This document shows positions 47,802 through 59,924 of a stretch of DNA of 64,000 nucleotides, one piece after another (position 1 is the stretch's first letter; every line of letters starts with the position of its first letter). The stretch spans positions 65,583 to 129,582 of the forward strand of contig JADGCV010000007.1 of the NCBI GenBank assembly GCA_015228815.1, written 5' to 3'. The position numbers and the translations under genes are program-made. Origin of the DNA: Magnetococcales bacterium. GTDB lineage: Bacteria; Pseudomonadota; Magnetococcia; Magnetococcales; UBA8363. The notes under the pieces were generated by a model that saw only the letters and a program-made list of their open reading frames with translations, was not told where the DNA came from and searched no databases.

Positions 47802-48226
47802 GCATGGGGGTCAATCTGAACGGGGGGCGGGACGGCCTGTCGGCGATGAGTGACATCAACGTCACGCCGATGGTCGATATCATGCTGGTGTTGCTGATCA
47901 TCTTCATGGTGACCGCGCCGCTTATGACCCAGGGGGTCGAAGTCGATCTGCCGAAGGAGGATTCCCAGGCAATCTCTACCGATACCGAACCCCTGGTCAT
48001 CTCGGTTCGCTCCGATGGGAGCACTTATATCGAGGAACGGGCCATCGATCTTGACGAACTGGGCGAGAAGGTGCGGGGCATCCGTCTGGCCAATCCCAAG
48101 CTGCCGGTGTATGTCCGTGGGGACAAGGCGGCTGACTATGGTTTCGTGATCCGAGTCATGACCGCGCTGCAACGGTCGGGGGTTGACAAGGTAGGGCTGA
48201 TCACGGAATTGCCCGATACGTTATGA
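47798..48226 (+). CDS. tolR: Tol-Pal system protein TolR
   Basis: A 142-residue ExbD-family protein with one membrane helix (SDINVTPMVDIMLVLLIIFM) holding the proton-carrying Asp27. The periplasmic domain follows. It overlaps tolQ and tolA by 4 nt each. Confidence 0.95.
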   Translation: MSMGVNLNGGRDGLSAMSDINVTPMVDIMLVLLIIFMVTAPLMTQGVEVDLPKEDSQAISTDTEPLVISVRSDGSTYIEERAIDLDELGEKVRGIRLANPKLPVYVRGDKAADYGFVIRVMTALQRSGVDKVGLITELPDTL

Positions 48227-49353
48227 TGTCGAGCAGAACCCCTCTGATCTGGTCGGTCGTTCTTCATCTGACCCTGGTGATGGCGGCCTATTTCCTGCCC
48301 ATGGCCAGTTTCGAACCAGCCAAGCCTCCTGTTCTGGCGGTGAATCTGATTCAATTGCCAACCGAGCTTTCTTCCAGGACGGGCCAGACGCTACCCAGGC
48401 AACAACCGCCCCAGGCGCGGGCGGCCCCTGTTTTGCCTCCGGCAAAGGAACCGCCTCCTCCATCCCCACCCAAACAGTCTTTGCCGGAACCTCGGCCTCC
48501 GGAGGTCGTCAAGCCGGTCGAAAAGCCGCGTCCGAAACCGGAACCCAAGCCGGAACCCAAGCCGGAACCCAAGCCCGAACCCAAACCGGAACCCAAGCCG
48601 GAACCCAAGCCCGAACCCAAACCGGAACCCAAGCCGGAACCCAAGCCGGAACCCAAGCCGGAACCCAAACCGGAGCGCAAACCGGAGCCCAAACCCGAAA
48701 AAGTACCCGAACCTGTGAAGGAGGTTCCAAAGGAAAAGCCCAAGGCGGTCGAACCCGAACCCAAGCCCATGGTCAAAGCCAAGCCGGTTGTTGAACCGGG
48801 GCCGAAGAAGAAGCCACCGGACAAGGTGGAGAAGACCGACAAGGTGGATAAGGCCGAGACGGCGGAAAAGCCCGAAAAGACCGAAGCCAAGGGACCTGCA
48901 AAAGCGGAGGAGACCAAAAAGGCCGAAGTTGCGGCGGGGAACGACAAGAAAAAGCCTGCTCTTGATTTTTCCAAGGCGATTGCCAAATATCAGGACAAGG
49001 TGGAGAAGGAGGACAAGGGGGATCGGGAAGCCAGCGAAGGAGCGGAGGATGCATCGCCGACGGTTTCGCCGACGGTTCTGGCGATGTGGCAACGCAACAT
49101 CACCATGACGGTTCGCAACAACTGGAGCAAACCGAATGGATTGATCAACGAAACGCAATTGGAGGTGCGGGTGCGGGTGCGGGTGGGACCGGACGGATCG
49201 TTGCAGGATGCCCAGGTGGAGCATTCGTCGGGGAACAAGGGGTTTGATGGTTCGGTGTTGCGTGCGATCTGGAAGACGAGGGTCGTTGATCCTCCGCCAG
49301 CAGGTTGCGATGAATGTCGGGAGTTGGAATTTTCCTTCAAACCGGTGGATTAG
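48223..49353 (+). CDS. tolA: TolA-like periplasm-spanning protein with EPKP repeats
   Basis: A 376-residue TolA/TonB-family protein. An N-terminal membrane helix (about residues 8-25) is followed by a proline-rich linker with about 13 EPKP repeats (residues 107-158), a Lys/Glu-rich helix-type segment (to about 270), and a C-terminal TonB/TolA-type domain containing VRVGPDGSLQDAQVEHSSGN. It transmits TolQR energy to outer-membrane partners. No tolB or pal follows, unlike the usual cluster. The C-terminal domain has two close Cys (CDEC). The TonB group is an alternative assignment. Confidence 0.85.
   Translation: MMSSRTPLIWSVVLHLTLVMAAYFLPMASFEPAKPPVLAVNLIQLPTELSSRTGQTLPRQQPPQARAAPVLPPAKEPPPPSPPKQSLPEPRPPEVVKPVEKPRPKPEPKPEPKPEPKPEPKPEPKPEPKPEPKPEPKPEPKPEPKPEPKPERKPEPKPEKVPEPVKEVPKEKPKAVEPEPKPMVKAKPVVEPGPKKKPPDKVEKTDKVDKAETAEKPEKTEAKGPAKAEETKKAEVAAGNDKKKPALDFSKAIAKYQDKVEKEDKGDREASEGAEDASPTVSPTVLAMWQRNITMTVRNNWSKPNGLINETQLEVRVRVRVGPDGSLQDAQVEHSSGNKGFDGSVLRAIWKTRVVDPPPAGCDECRELEFSFKPVD
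48541..48696 (+). repeat. 12-bp tandem repeat in tolA (EPKP codons)
   Basis: Thirteen 12-bp units of GAACCCAAGCCG and variants, the last two degenerate. Units differ only at third codon positions. Units 2-4 (48553-48588) and 5-7 (48589-48624) are an exact 36-bp duplication, a sign of recent slippage or unequal exchange. Confidence 0.95.
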
Positions 49354-53376: not shown

Positions 53377-53407
53377 CTGGGGGATTGCCCCCAGGGTTTT
53401 GTTTTTT
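53377..53407 (+). terminator. Terminator-like hairpin in left arm of the inverted repeat
   Basis: CTGGGGG (53377-53383) and CCCCCAG (53388-53394), loop ATTG, followed by GG and a T-rich tract with TTTT and TTTTTT. On the reverse strand the same hairpin is followed by ACCCCTTTTTT, so it can stop transcripts in both directions. Confidence 0.8.
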
Positions 53408-53450
53408 CTTTTGTTTTTGACTTTGTTTTTTACGCGCCATTTCACCCGAA

Positions 53451-53485
53451 GCAAGATTCCCGCATGGTTTTTGCGGGAATCTTGC
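53451..53485. repeat. Internal hairpin A of the inverted-repeat element
   Basis: GCAAGATTCCCGCA (53451-53464) pairs perfectly with TGCGGGAATCTTGC (53472-53485), 14 bp, 7-nt loop TGGTTTT. Confidence 0.93.
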
Positions 53486-53501
53486 GCAGGCGCGCGCCCT
53501 T

Positions 53502-53540
53502 GTCCTGGTCTTTTCGCGGTTTTTGCGAAAAGACCAGGAC
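53502..53540. repeat. Internal hairpin B of the inverted-repeat element
   Basis: GTCCTGGTCTTTTCGC (53502-53517) pairs perfectly with GCGAAAAGACCAGGAC (53525-53540), 16 bp, 7-nt loop GGTTTTT. The loop is nearly that of hairpin A. Confidence 0.95.
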
Positions 53541-53541
53541 A

Positions 53542-53577
53542 CATTGCAAGTTTCCAGGCCATACTACTCTTGCAATG
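53542..53577. repeat. Internal hairpin C of the inverted-repeat element
   Basis: CATTGCAAG (53542-53550) pairs with CTTGCAATG (53569-53577), 9 bp, 18-nt loop. A weaker fourth hairpin may form from GCGTTT (53577-53582) and AAACGC (53598-53603). Confidence 0.85.
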
Positions 53578-53657
53578 CGTTTGCCTTCCTTCGCAAAAAA
53601 CGCGGAAATTCGCTTCGGGTGAAATGGCGCGTAAAAAACAAAGTCAAAATCAAAACC

Positions 53658-53686
53658 CTGGGGGCAATCCCCCAGACCCCTTTTTT
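53658..53686 (+). terminator. Terminator-like hairpin in right arm of the inverted repeat
   Basis: CTGGGGG (53658-53664) and CCCCCAG (53669-53675), loop CAAT, then ACCCC and six T. It is the mirror of the left-arm hairpin and can also work on the reverse strand, where a T-rich tract follows. Confidence 0.8.
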
Positions 53687-53723: not shown

Positions 53724-55838
53724 TCAATAATTGGCTCTGGCCTGCTGCCGCCGGATCCCGACCATGCTTTCGGAAACCTTCAGAGCAAGGCCAAGGGTCG
53801 AGATTCCTTTCGAATTCAATAGTTTTATAAGCCTGAGAAAAACTTCCGCCGTCACCAGGGTATCGCCCATGGCCGTATGACGGCGCTGGACGGTCACCCC
53901 AAAACGCCGGGCAATGGCATCCAGGGTATGATCGACCTCCCCTTCATGCAGATAAACCGAAAGCAGCAGGGTGTCCAGTACCGGAAGTTCAAAACGGACG
54001 CCCGTGCGTTCCTCCAGAAGTTGCAGAAAACGCATGTCGAAGGCGGCATTATGGGCTACCAGCACTGAATCGCCGACAAACGCCTTGAATTGCGGCAGTA
54101 CCTCCTCGATCGTCGGCTGATTGAGGACATCTTCTTCGGTGATGCCATGAATGTGCGTCGATTCCAGAGGGATGGGACGGCGCGGATTGACAAGTCGCTC
54201 AAACGTCTCGCCCTTGAGAATGCGCCCGTTGACGACCCGTACCCCGGCGATGGCGATGATTTCATCACCCTTGGAGGGCTGAAGACCGGTGGTTTCGGTA
54301 TCGAAGACAACGAAATTCATCCCGGCAAGTCCCCGTGCCGCCACCTTGCCCAGGGATTTGATGGAGGTCATCAAGGAAAAGTCATAAAACTCGGGACGTT
54401 CCTGGATGAATTGTTCCTTCTGTCGCCACTGCCGCGGCGAAGGGGGGAGCGGCAGGCGCAACATCGACTGCCCCGGCTGGCGATGTTTGCGGCTCCACAG
54501 TTCGCTGCCATGCCCTTCCAGGATTTCCTCGATGTTGAAGGTGGCATCACCATCGGAAATCATCAGGCTGCGACAGGACTCCACCGTGGAGGCGGGAAGC
54601 GGCGTGCCGACCCAGATGAAATCCAGATAGATGCGGTGGTTGCCCATCAACGCCTGGACCTCGATGGTCAAGGGATGGGCATGATCCCGGATTTTGAGGG
54701 CCAATTGCTCCAGGGCCAGGACCAGAGAAGGGGCATCGACCAGGACCCACAAGGGTTCGCCAACCCGGACCAGACTGGGGCCGTTGTTTTTTTCCAGGCG
54801 TTGGGACAATCCTGAAATCAGGTCCGAGGTGAGGACATCCGCCAGGGACCAGTGTTCGGTAGCCAGGGCATTGGCGTGGGCGGCCATTTGCGCGACAAGT
54901 TCCGAAAGGTCTTCTCCTTCACTGTGAATGATGTGCATGAATTGATTGCGGCTGGAAGGTTCCATGTCGGGATTTCCTGTCAGGGTTTCCGCGGCGGCGT
55001 TCAGGTTGGCCATCGGACCGCGAATGTTTTCAAGAAACCGGCGGAGCATGCGGTCGCTGTGACGCAGGAGTGAAACCCGGCGTCTCTCTCCCTCGAAGGT
55101 GATCAGGAAATGATTTTGCACCGGGTGACCACCGGAAAAAAGGCGCATGGTGCAGGAGAGGATCAGGGCATCGTGAAGGGTGGTGCAGAAAAAATGCATC
55201 GACTCCTTGTTGTCTCCCTCCGTGGAATGGACGTTGCGTTCGAGGAGGTGCATGGTGGTTTCGATGGGATGACGGGGGCAGAGGTCATACAGGGAGCGTC
55301 CCAGTCCCAGGGAATCCAGGTGGTTGCGAAAGAGGGATTGAACGGCTTGGTTGTACAGGATCATGTGCCCCTGGGCATTGATGACGATCAAGCCGATGGG
55401 CATGGATTGGATCACCTGTTCCAATTGCTCCATCCCTTCGGCGCTGCGGATCAGTGCCTCGCCGACCTGTCGGCGGGCATGAAAGAGTGCTGTCCCCAAT
55501 TGTTGTGTCGCGGTGGGGAGGGATTCGAGCCAATGATCGCCATCGATGGCGATGGCATGCAAGGCATTGGCGTTGGCCATGATTTCCACCCCACGTTCCA
55601 GGTGGGTCAAGGGGCGAAACAATACCCGGTCCAGCCATGCCCAGATGTGTGCCAGGATTCCCCCCAGCAGAAAAAGACCAAACAGCAACCAGGCGCTGGT
55701 TTTTTTCAACCATGCGGCCAGGGGCGCGTCGATGGTGGGCATCTGGGCGAAGGAAAACCAGGCGGTTCCTCCAAGAGCGACTGCCGCCAGGAGCAGAAAC
55801 AAGGCCAGAATACCCCAGAATCGTGAACGAGCGTTCAT
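53724..55838 (-). CDS. Membrane PAS / degenerate-kinase / DnaQ-like exonuclease fusion
   Basis: A 704-residue inner-membrane protein. Two helices (about 9-30 and 49-68) are followed by a HAMP-like linker, a PAS-type domain (about 137-235), a kinase-like dimerisation and ATPase-like region (255-465), and a C-terminal DEDDh 3'-5' exonuclease domain (505-680). The exonuclease motifs are intact: FDTETTG (Asp513, Glu515), AHNAAFD (Asp601) and RRHTAMGD (His654, Asp659). In the kinase part ENIRGPM stands where HELRTPL is expected (Glu270 for His) and no N-box is seen, so phosphotransfer is unlikely. Its start overlaps the response-regulator stop by 4 nt. Such exonucleases are found beside acetate-permease and DUF294 genes. 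Confidence 0.85.
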
Positions 55839-56221
55839 GATGATGTGCGCTGATCCAATCGCAACATTTCTTTGACCTTTGCCACCAGTTCGCGCGTGGC
55901 GAAGGGCTTGGTGACATAGTCATCCGCTCCCAATGCCAATCCTTTTTCCTGTTCGACCTCGCGTCCCTTGGCGGTCAACATGATGATGCGGACATCGTTC
56001 CAGAGTGGATTGGCGCGAATGGTTTCACAGACCTCGAAACCATTGCGTTTGGGCATCATGACATCCAGAAGGATCAGATCGGGTTTTCTGGCGGCGACCG
56101 CGGCAAGGGCTTCTTCGCCATCAGCGACCGATCGCACCGAGAATCCCTCTTTTTTCATGAGGAATTCCAACGACAGGACGATATTGGGGGCATCATCGAC
56201 GATCAATATTTCCGCCGCCAT
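55835..56221 (-). CDS. Single-domain response regulator
   Basis: A 128-residue CheY-like receiver without output domain. The acidic pair Asp9-Asp10, phospho-acceptor Asp53 (LILLDVMMP), Thr83 (MLTAKG) and Lys105 (DDYVTKPF) are present. GGAG precedes the ATG. It overlaps the membrane exonuclease gene (ATGA), so the pair is cotranslated. As that partner looks phosphotransfer-dead, another kinase probably phosphorylates it. Confidence 0.92.
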
Positions 56222-56279: not shown

Positions 56280-57716
56280 CTATTGCAACATTCTTAACTG
56301 AAAATGATGGTTGATCAACTCCTTGAAGTGATCGACCCGAACAAGGCCGTGACGCAGGTGTTCCCGATCGATCCGGCCCAGAGTGTCAAGGGAGACATGG
56401 TCGGAAGGAGCCCGGGCATCCGACAGAGGAAGACCGGCGTTTTCCATGCGGGTTCGCAGTCGCAGGTGCAGGAAAAACGCGAAGGCTTCGAGCAGATCCT
56501 TGGCGAATGAAGGCTCCAGGACCCCCAGTCGCACCAATCCCTGAATCCGGCGCCTGGTGTTGGGATCCTTGAGGCGCCGTTCGAGCGCCAGACTCCGGAC
56601 GCCATGGACGATCGGAAAGATACCTCCCTTTTTTAGGTCGATTCGCCCCTGTTGGCTACCTTTTTCGACGATGAAGCGATGAAAAAATCCCAAAGGGGTT
56701 GCGAAGGCCAGTGTCGGCATGGCAAACCGGGCATGAAACCCCTGATCCTGGGGAAGATGGCCGAAATAGTTGCGTCGCAATGACCAGAAAAGATCAAAGT
56801 TTCCGGCGATGGGACGGGCATCGAAAAATACGGCAAGATGGAGCAGATTTTCAGGAGTTGGATCATCGATCCAGGAGCGGATGCGTGCCAGAAAGGATGC
56901 GACCGAACCGTTCCAGGCCGGATGATTCATCATGACGTTTCCGGGGCAGGGCGGATAACCCAGATCGAGGAGCGCTGATGCGAAGGCGGTGGCGAACCGT
57001 TCGACCTCCCGTGGGGTGAGCGAATCGTCGGCGACGAGGGCATTGTCCTGATCCGATGCGACAAGCTGTTCACCCCGGCCTTCACTGCCAAGCATGAGGA
57101 TGCAGAGGTGGGAATGAATATCCGGCGGCGCCACGAAAGCGGCGACCTTTTGAAAGATTTTACGGTCCAGTTCCTGAAGCAGACGACCCAGGTGATCGAT
57201 TCGGACACCGCGGTCCAGAAGGGTTCGAACCAGACATTCCCGATGCTTGAAAGATCGGGCCAGTTCGTCCAGGGAGGAGGCGTCACGGACATGCTCGATG
57301 GCCAGAATCGGATGGTGGGTCAGAAGCGACAGGAGTCGGTGCCATTCGAGGCTTCCCAGAAGGTTTCCGGAGCGTCCCACTGCCACACGCTTCAATCCTC
57401 GGCGGTCCATGAGGAGAAATGCCTTGAGCAGGGAAATATCGGGAGAGACGACCACCAGGTTCCAGGAGGTGATTTCGGCAACGGGGGTTTCGACCCCTTT
57501 GAGGTCCAGAGCCAGGGCGTCACGGATGTCGGAACTGGTGATCACCCCATGTTGGGTTCCTTTCGTAATGAATGCGGCATCTTGGTCATGACGCTGCATG
57601 TGACGGGCGGCTTCGCGGATGGTGGCGGTTGCCGGCAGTATCGGAAGATGAACGAGATCCAGTTCTCCGATGGATTGATTGGGTGTCATAGGGAGGGCGG
57701 TGGTTATCGAAGTCAT
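56280..57716 (-). CDS. CBS-domain DUF294 nucleotidyltransferase-like protein
   Basis: A 478-residue protein. A CBS-domain pair occupies about residues 20-135. The DUF294 nucleotidyltransferase core has LGSEGRGEQ (209-217) and SDQDNALVADD (221-231), the family's GS and DxD-type motifs, and an all-helical C-terminal domain follows. The family often flanks acetate permeases and is thought to signal or modify a nucleotide-linked target. Start is uncertain: ATG 57716 and ATG 57689 both lack a clear ribosome binding site; the frame is open to 57953, overlapping actP. Confidence 0.8.
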   Translation of the reverse strand: MTSITTALPMTPNQSIGELDLVHLPILPATATIREAARHMQRHDQDAAFITKGTQHGVITSSDIRDALALDLKGVETPVAEITSWNLVVVSPDISLLKAFLLMDRRGLKRVAVGRSGNLLGSLEWHRLLSLLTHHPILAIEHVRDASSLDELARSFKHRECLVRTLLDRGVRIDHLGRLLQELDRKIFQKVAAFVAPPDIHSHLCILMLGSEGRGEQLVASDQDNALVADDSLTPREVERFATAFASALLDLGYPPCPGNVMMNHPAWNGSVASFLARIRSWIDDPTPENLLHLAVFFDARPIAGNFDLFWSLRRNYFGHLPQDQGFHARFAMPTLAFATPLGFFHRFIVEKGSQQGRIDLKKGGIFPIVHGVRSLALERRLKDPNTRRRIQGLVRLGVLEPSFAKDLLEAFAFFLHLRLRTRMENAGLPLSDARAPSDHVSLDTLGRIDREHLRHGLVRVDHFKELINHHFQLRMLQ

Positions 57717-57903: not shown

Positions 57904-59604
57904 TCAGTGTCCCGAGGCTTCCACGGCCCCGATCCCTGTTTCGCAACGGACATTCTGGGGATCGAAAAGCGCCCGTTCCTTTTGCGCCTGGGAACTGTTG
58001 TCCATTTTCGAGAACAGCCAGCAGCCGAAGAAGGCCAGGGTCATGGAAAAGATGGCAGGGTCCTTGTAGGGAAACAACGGCGCCTTGTTGCCCAGGACCT
58101 CGACCCAGACCGTTTTCGACAGGATCACCATGGTGACGGTGGAAATCAATCCCAGGGAACCACCGATCAGGGCGCCGCGGGTGGTCAGATCTTTCCAATA
58201 GATGGAAAGAATCAGGATGGGAAAGTTGGCCGAAGCGGCGATGGCGAAGGCCAGTCCGACCATGAAGGCGACGTTTTGTTTTTCGAACTGGATGCCAAGG
58301 TAGATGGCGATGATCCCCAGGGCCAGGGCAGCGAATTTGGAGATGCGCATTTCCACCCGTTCGTCCACCTGACCGCCACGGATGGCGTTGGCGTAAATAT
58401 CATGGGACACGGCCGAGGCCCCCGCCAGCGTCAGGCCCGACACCACCGCCAGGATGGTCGCGAAGGCGACCGCCGAAATGAAGCCGAGGAACAGATCGCC
58501 ACCGGTGGCATGGGCCATGTGGATGGCGGCCATGTTGTTGCCACCATTGAGGGTTCCCTTGATGATATCGATGTAGTGGGGATTGGGGGCCACCAGGACC
58601 ACGGCGCCGAAGCCGATGATGAAGGTGAGAATGTAGAAATAGCCGATGAAACCCGTGGCGTAGAACACCGATTTGCGGGCCTCCTTGGCATTGGCGACGG
58701 TGAAAAAGCGCATCAGGATATGCGGCAGACCGGCGGTGCCGAACATCAGAGCCATCCCCAGGGAAATTGCCGAGATGGGGTCGGAGACGAGTCCGCCGGG
58801 GGCGAATATGTCCTTGTTTTCGGCGACCACTTTTTTGTGATCGGCCAGGCCACTGGCTTTGACGCCTTCCAGGGCGCTGCGGAAAAACGCCTCGAAATCG
58901 AACTGGACATGGTGGAGTGCCCCGAGGGCGATGAATGTGGCGCCGGTCAGGAGAAGAACCGCCTTGATGATCTGAACCCAGGTGGTTGCGATCATGCCGC
59001 CGAAGGCGACATAGAGAATCATCAGGGTGCCGACGATGATGACGGCGTATTCATAGGGCAGACCGAACAAGGTACGGATCAGTTGCCCGGCGCCGACCAT
59101 CTGCGCGATCAGATAGAGGATGACGGTGCAAAGGGTTCCCAGGGCCGAAAGGGTACGGATGGGAATGCGCGACAGCCGAAAGGAGACGATGTCGGCAAAG
59201 GTGTAGCGGCCCAGATTGCGCAACTGTTCCGCCATCAAAAACAGGATGACGGGCCAACCTACCAGGAAGCCGATGGAATAGATCAATCCGTCGTATCCCT
59301 TGGCGAACACCATGGCGGAAATGCCGAGAAAGGATGCGGCGGACATGTAATCGCCGGCGATGGCAAGGCCATTCTGAAAGCCGGTGATGCCGCCACCCGC
59401 GGCATAGAAATCCTTGGTGGTCTTGGTGCGCGATGCCGCCCAATAGGTGATGCCAAGCGTGACGGCGACAAAGACGAAAAACATCGCGATCGCGGTCATG
59501 TTCAGGGGCGCCTCGGTGCTGGCCGCCGCGGGATCGGCGGCCTGGGCGAGGGAAGACCACGAAATGGCGAAACCAAGAGACAGGGCAATGAGATGGCGCA
59601 TCAT
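57904..59604 (-). CDS. actP: Cation/acetate symporter ActP
   Basis: A 566-residue sodium:solute symporter with a cleavable-type N terminus ([11 protein letters not shown]) and about thirteen helices. [31 protein letters not shown] and [15 protein letters not shown] are ActP family segments. It takes up acetate and other short carboxylates. AAGGAGG lies 7 nt before the first ATG; the ATG overlaps the DUF485 gene stop. Confidence 0.95.
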
Positions 59605-59924
59605 TTCGTTTCCTCCTTGATGCGACGGGTCAGGTCGTCGAATTCACCATTGGCGCGGTAGACATAGATGCCGGTCAGGACGAAGGCGATGGCGATGATG
59701 AATACCCCCAGCGGGATTCCGACCGAGATGACGCTGTCGGGTGAAATCCTGGCGCCCAGGGACTGCGGCGCGAAGGCGACAACCAGAATGAAGGCGTAAT
59801 AGATCACCAACATGATGATGCTGAGTGTCCAGGCAAAGCGGGAACGCCGGGTCACCAGTGCCCGATAGTTCGGGTTTTTTTGAATTCTTTCAAAAAGGCG
59901 TTTGTCAACAGGGTCTGTGTTCAT
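59601..59924 (-). CDS. yjcH: DUF485 membrane protein (YjcH-like)
   Basis: A 107-residue protein with two membrane helices (about 31-53 and 66-90) and [20 protein letters not shown] at the start, typical of the small partner encoded with ActP. Its TGA overlaps the actP start, so expression is coupled. CCAAGGAGGATGG-type ribosome binding site precedes the ATG. Confidence 0.92.

Follow-up and report, generated by a model that had tools for sequence, protein, structure and literature searches.

In Caulobacter, the DivL-DivK pair provides the example of a histidine kinase (HK)-like protein that reads a phosphorylated response regulator (RR), an output domain having been turned into an input sensor (PMC4211667). 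In Pseudomonas, actP, a CBS-DUF294 gene and the exonuclease gene pp_0353 have been linked to the SLC5-kinase system MxtR/ErdR (CrbS/R), with PP_0353 and PP_0354 of P. putida forming an exonuclease-DUF294 operon (PMC9927547). Mutation of pp_0353 impairs growth on pyruvate, and the authors of that study speculated on a role in mRNA degradation (PMC9927547). The PA3232-PA3235 cluster of P. aeruginosa was found to be induced by propionate (PMC9765439).

The locus described here lies in a 64,000-nucleotide stretch of a Magnetococcales genome (hereafter the window), and its features are collected in Table 1. As the initial annotation had proposed, membrane helices, a PAS-type domain, a kinase-like core, and an exonuclease are joined in one protein, which the open reading frame, Pfam, and an AlphaFold2 model of the full-length protein all confirmed. 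This model (56-member alignment; mean pLDDT of 86.4) comprises two long N-terminal helices of the membrane type, a PAS-like domain, a DHp hairpin (residues 251 to 288 and 294 to 329), a CA-like sandwich (residues 333 to 464), and the exonuclease (residues 508 to 676), its pTM of 0.49 making the relative orientation of the domains unreliable. The loop between the two membrane helices is short, which argues against a large periplasmic sensor. In the 704-aa protein, the PAS Pfam match covers residues 137 to 188 (E = 1.7e-7), and the PAS motif LYN...GLGR is conserved among the best 80 of at least 582 relatives. In the same 80 sequences, R481, D486, and F487 of the linker between the kinase-like core and the exonuclease are each invariant (80/80), the family form being R-P-E-[FY]-Y-D-F, and a related motif, RP..YDFDL, persists even in forms devoid of DHp-CA.

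Table 1. Coordinates in the window of the exonuclease protein, its domains, and the neighboring genes
Feature	Window positions	Strand	Basis
Membrane pseudo-histidine-kinase exonuclease, 704 aa	53724..55838	(-)	ATG at 55838; ORF, Pfam, AlphaFold2 model
N-terminal helices, residues 3-89: membrane helix pair joined by a short loop	55572..55832	(-)	DSSP of model, translation
PAS domain, residues 137-249	55092..55430	(-)	Pfam PAS, model strands 149-249, motif
DHp-like hairpin, residues 251-329; E270 in place of the phosphoacceptor His	54852..55088	(-)	Model, alignments, similarity to SLC5-HK DHp
Degenerate CA (ATPase-like) domain, residues 333-464; W409 in place of the G1 Asp, N-box Asn absent	54447..54842	(-)	Profile and structure matches
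Linker motif RPEFYDF, residues 481-487, between kinase-like core and exonuclease	54378..54398	(-)	Invariant in relatives
DEDDh 3'-5' exonuclease, residues 508-676	53811..54317	(-)	D513, E515, D601, H654, D659; Pfam, fold
Single-domain RR, 128 aa; phosphoacceptor D53, K105	55835..56221	(-)	Pfam; bare receiver
CBS-DUF294 putative nucleotidyltransferase (approximate start)	56280..57716	(-)	Pfam
ActP cation/acetate symporter	57904..59604	(-)	NF006903, 905.8 bits (cut-off 750)
DUF485 (YjcH-like) small membrane protein	59601..59924	(-)	Pfam DUF485, E = 5.4e-33

In 84,980 species genomes scanned, at least 582 relatives were confirmed, far beyond chance. The best 80 of these match along most of the protein length and are spread over Magnetococcales, Alpha-, Beta-, and Gammaproteobacteria, Nitrospirota, Desulfobacterota, and further groups, with many of the sources being metagenome-assembled genomes. 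The fusion architecture is common in Proteobacteria and no one-off. The initial annotation had called the combination of a membrane sensor with a DnaQ-type nuclease unusual; the combination itself is real, but its supposed rarity is not, since hundreds of genomes carry the fusion. Our search of open-access papers found no description of a PAS/HK-exonuclease fusion; the architecture is widespread and, in that literature, undescribed, and what is new here is the probable role of the dead kinase, whose paralogous DHp connects the protein with an RR and an SLC5 kinase.

The kinase-like core escapes standard detection, the HisKA Pfam match in the 704-aa protein reaching only E = 0.26, under the cut-off. 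Modeled alone, DHp-CA nevertheless yielded a pLDDT of 90.4 and matched HK853, WalK, CusS, DivL, and the HK853-RR468 complexes (Foldseek, VIA-align), so that the structure prediction suggested by the initial annotation recovered a kinase-like fold, which is predicted to be present despite the lost kinase residues. The loss of the phosphoacceptor His noticed earlier turned out to be family-wide: among the best 80 of at least 582 relatives, the H-box position never holds His (0/80), is Glu in 52/80, and is never Tyr, the DivL residue. In these 80 sequences, Trp takes the place of the G1-box Asp in 79, and the N-box Asn is not conserved, occurring sporadically in 2. Loss of these residues together with the His argues that kinase death is ancestral to the family and did not arise by a local mutation. 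Other positions have been retained in the same set: R273 in 78/80, within the motif E-x-x-R-x-P-[LV]-A-N-[LI]-R-A-A-A-E, and W364, W409, G411, H443, W448, and R461, all invariant or nearly so. Beyond the initial annotation, the analysis thus brought out the loss of ATP-binding residues in CA, an RR gene directly upstream, and a separate SLC5 sensor kinase.

Of the own-genome HK loci compared, this kinase is the closest to the dead core. When a profile of the pseudo-HK core was compared with 23 own-genome HK loci (those closest to the SLC5 kinase plus one weaker), the SLC5 kinase stood apart, with 36.6 bits versus 5.7 for the runner-up on the DHp-only profile and 64.6 versus 14.5 bits on the whole core. 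Alignment of the pseudo-HK to the SLC5 kinase by hhalign gave 99.3% over 211 columns, and the DHp motifs of the two correspond. Being singled out in this way, the SLC5 kinase makes the pseudo-HK most simply a dead paralogue of its own core, from which we infer that the pseudo-HK should still offer a docking face to the regulator of the SLC5 kinase. DHp positions taken to be equivalent to the HK853-RR468 interface show higher conservation than the remainder of the DHp (3.17 versus 2.13 bits; permutation p = 0.0006).

On the minus strand of the window, the genes follow the order DUF485, ActP, CBS-DUF294, single-domain RR, and exonuclease, with the start of the exonuclease gene overlapping the end of the RR gene by 4 nt. 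Among the best 80 of at least 582 relatives, an RR adjoins the exonuclease gene in 73 loci, and its phosphorylation residues D53 and K105 are kept in 68/68. In 58 of the same 80 loci we found an SLC5-HK of ~917 aa, with an SLC5-like N terminus, intact HisKA/HATPase, and a canonical HELRTP box, the SSF domain lying under the E limit in some of these sequences. The own-genome SLC5 kinase (L085; 935 aa, canonical H-box) is encoded on another contig (G000:C11) and is 72% identical to the exonuclease-adjacent kinase of L007. Some genomes that carry the RR (e.g., G049 and G101) show no SLC5-HK, possibly owing to incomplete assembly. In genomes G085 and G246 (L101/L102), the RR stands directly beside the SLC5 kinase and an exonuclease of the window family was not found in the genome; the RR may therefore have other targets.

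Two further features of the window were noted. Directly downstream of the exonuclease gene, positions 53380 to 53672 hold an imperfect palindrome of ~290 bp with 52-nt arms that are 92% complementary. Its arm core, GCGCCATTTCACCCGAAGC, occurs 75 times in the genome (two mismatches at most) versus 0 times for the reversed control, and the copies of GCGCCATTTCACCCGAAGC often form inverted pairs ~180 to 230 bp apart, as a MITE-like repeat family. At positions 48223 to 49353, a TonB-like protein carries a long PEPK repeat that opens long antisense frames, which are probably not genes.

We propose, as the reading that we regard as reasonably probable, that an RR, once phosphorylated by an SLC5 kinase, binds the dead kinase and thereby switches the exonuclease, in a setting of ActP/DUF294 monocarboxylate use. 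The membrane SLC5-type HK would phosphorylate the dedicated single-domain RR encoded directly upstream of the exonuclease, and the phosphorylated RR would then dock on the DHp hairpin present in the exonuclease protein. As a copy of the SLC5 kinase DHp that has lost catalysis, this hairpin would work as a reader and not as a kinase. RR docking, together with the PAS domain, would shift the dead kinase core, and the shifted core, via the invariant RPE(F/Y)YDF linker, would turn the membrane-held 3'-5' exonuclease on or off. The target would probably be RNA or DNA 3' ends, upon a change in acetate- or pyruvate-type carbon sources. Phosphotransfer, docking, the direction of nuclease control, and the substrate are the conditional parts of this scheme.

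The connection between the DHp and the RR is best seen where both have disappeared. In Magnetococcales, L088 and L052 (the latter in the same genome as L089/G057) keep the DUF485-ActP-DUF294-exonuclease arrangement, with an exonuclease protein of 635 aa from which residues ~253 to 323, i.e., the DHp hairpin, are missing, and the RR is missing as well. A third congener, G145 (L096:3202-5316), has an 80-residue DHp segment of scrambled sequence and no RR, a generic hybrid kinase occupying the place where the RR would be. The remnants NVRPM and PDMAGRNRFG, legible in another frame, suggest a compensated frameshift in L096, an assembly error being possible. Careful realignment placed a DHp in L094 and L100 and left that of L096 scrambled. 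No SLC5 kinase was found in the genomes of L088, L052, and L096. In family f39, four genomes carry forms of 465 to 476 aa without DHp-CA, which retain the membrane helices, the PAS-like part, the linker, and the DEDDh motif, and two carry partial DHps; the RR is absent from all six, and the f39 genome G276 has both an intact DHp and an adjacent RR.

Among 40 exonuclease-bearing genomes out of 299 sampled, the RR was present in 30 of 31 with an intact DHp, a count that takes in the diverged adjacent RR of G261, seen in one search only, and in none of the 9 whose DHp is damaged (Fisher p = 3.7e-8, before kinship correction). Where the DHp is intact and the RR not adjacent (L016, L018, L036, and L039), an RR 60 to 63% identical lies elsewhere in the genome. 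The RR was not found despite a DHp in L030 (which also carries R273A), L031, and L095. On a tree of 93 exonucleases, damage to the DHp needs four changes, of which at least three are forced by well-supported branches. As far as sequences can tell, the co-loss of DHp and RR shows a functional linkage, short of direct binding.

The dead DHp-CA could instead be a mere scaffold for dimerization and signal transmission, the PAS and membrane part sensing the cue and driving the exonuclease, with the coexpressed RR acting elsewhere as a sink or on another protein. The conservation of the PAS and membrane parts fits this reading, as do the RR and SLC5-HK pairs that exist without the exonuclease and the short forms in which DEDDh persists without DHp-CA, indicating that the nuclease can do without a DHp. 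Joint loss of DHp and RR on at least three occasions speaks against it, however, as does the specific relationship of the DHp to that of the likely kinase of the RR, with the RR-facing positions being the conserved ones; we consider it rather unlikely.

Control by the RR, which we prefer, leaves room for different substrates, and here the genomic setting has to be considered. The neighboring ActP, DUF485, and CBS-DUF294 genes support the link to acetate genes made by the initial annotation. Among the best 80 of at least 582 relatives, DUF294 lies near the exonuclease in 50 loci, ActP-like symporter matches in 27, an SSF symporter cluster in 36, and a protein that on reading its sequence resembles an acetyl-CoA synthetase in 11. 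In genome G062, a PP_0353-like exonuclease belongs to a separate, soluble lineage of 208 aa that overlaps or abuts DUF294; it scores 239 bits on NF006601 (cut-off 189) and is ~35% identical to the window exonuclease. On the same model (PRK09145 soluble exonuclease), the window exonuclease reaches 100 bits, under the 189 cut-off. Orthology of the window exonuclease to PP_0353 is therefore unsupported, the apparent counterpart in G062 being this separate lineage, and P. sagittaria carries both lineages. In genome G216, L124:1008-3467 encodes an 819-aa protein that unites a DEDDh exonuclease with CBS and DUF294 domains in a natural fusion. The soluble lineage of G062 and the fusion of G216 suggest that different DEDDh exonucleases have repeatedly been drawn into a setting of DUF294 and monocarboxylate symporters.

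It could thus be argued that the exonuclease opposes its DUF294 neighbor, DUF294 attaching nucleotides to the 3' end of an RNA or to a protein, and DEDDh taking them off, as a reversible modification tuned by the carbon source. This reading concerns the substrate and could be compatible with control by the RR. In its favor are the frequency of DUF294 in the loci of the best 80 relatives, the distinct lineage next to DUF294 in G062, the fusion in G216, and the PP_0353/PP_0354 operon of P. putida (PMC9927547). On the other hand, the nucleotidyltransferase assignment of DUF294 is putative, and no DUF294 was found nearby in 30 of these 80 loci, some with short flanks. We also know of no DEDDh enzyme that removes nucleotidyl groups from proteins, and altogether this opposition seems to us quite improbable.

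The nuclease itself appears intact. The RNase_T Pfam match spans residues 510 to 667 (E = 1.1e-38), and D513, E515, D601, H654, and D659 are all present and each invariant (80/80) among the best 80 of at least 582 relatives, in agreement with the complete DEDDh set reported by the initial annotation; F512 is also invariant or nearly so in this set. The exonuclease model superimposes on PolC exo with a Z score of 24.9 (rmsd of 1.7 A over 193 aligned residues) and on E. coli epsilon with a Z score of 21.4. The domain is thus a predicted nuclease with an RNase H-like DnaQ fold and a complete DEDDh site. Among the matches listed, the solved folds closest to it are those of PolC exo, epsilon, ExoX, DinG, TREX, and RNase T, with Orn absent, and the nucleotide second messenger suggested earlier as a substrate is unsupported. 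An ordinary DNA repair or proofreading exonuclease, anchored to the membrane by happenstance, would agree with the fold being nearest to PolC exo and epsilon, but it is most improbable and the replicative proofreader was rejected, because the protein scores 127 bits on TIGR01406 (replicative DnaQ epsilon; cut-off 222.7), its own genome carries a proper epsilon at C55 (250.3 bits), and its neighbors are acetate and signaling genes, with none for repair.

If the RR-controlled model holds, a two-component pathway would end in a nuclease and not at a promoter. It would also provide a second, independent case of a dead HK reused as a reader of an RR, with an enzymatic output that can be assayed directly, and point to how the exonuclease gene targeted by MxtR/ErdR in the acetate-pyruvate regulon of Pseudomonas, so far unexplained, might work. 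More tentatively, with the balance leaning slightly against it, the family might define a class of two-component systems with a nuclease output, in which an SLC5 kinase acts through a bare receiver on a dead paralogue bearing a membrane exonuclease, so that a carbon signal leads directly to the degradation of RNA (or DNA) 3' ends at the membrane. The RR-controlled model would also make a testable set of hundreds of proteins for which general family models give only the exonuclease domain.

Set against the described systems, the window protein has the fold and the DEDDh active site of DnaQ epsilon and of the PolC exonuclease domain, but it is membrane anchored and pseudo-kinase linked, outside any polymerase. 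With PP_0353 of P. putida it has in common a DEDDh exonuclease in an acetate/DUF294 setting, whereas PP_0353 has been described without a sensor part such as the one present here (PMC9927547). The SLC5/STAC kinases CrbS/MxtR, CbrA, and RpuS (PMC5715377, PMC9927547, PMC9100948) have a counterpart in its own genome and in 58 of the loci of the best 80 relatives, and the MxtR/ErdR targets of Pseudomonas include ActP, DUF294, and an exonuclease. However, CrbS and MxtR have an extra C-terminal receiver that the ~917-aa kinases of the window family lack, and while the regulators CrbR/ErdR and CbrB bind DNA, the RR of the window is a bare 128-aa receiver next to a nuclease. A further parallel is DivL, and its structure (4q20) was recovered by both the fold and the profile comparisons of DHp-CA. 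DivL is a PAS-bearing, HK-like protein without the phosphoacceptor His that senses through its DHp whether a single-domain RR is phosphorylated (PMC4211667); the window protein likewise combines PAS with a dead HK, and its family joins an HK fold without kinase residues to a dedicated, phosphorylatable RR, putatively read by the DHp. In DivL the His position is taken by Tyr and the output goes to the CckA kinase pathway, whereas the window family has mostly Glu, and its putative RR binding would be coupled to a covalently attached nuclease.
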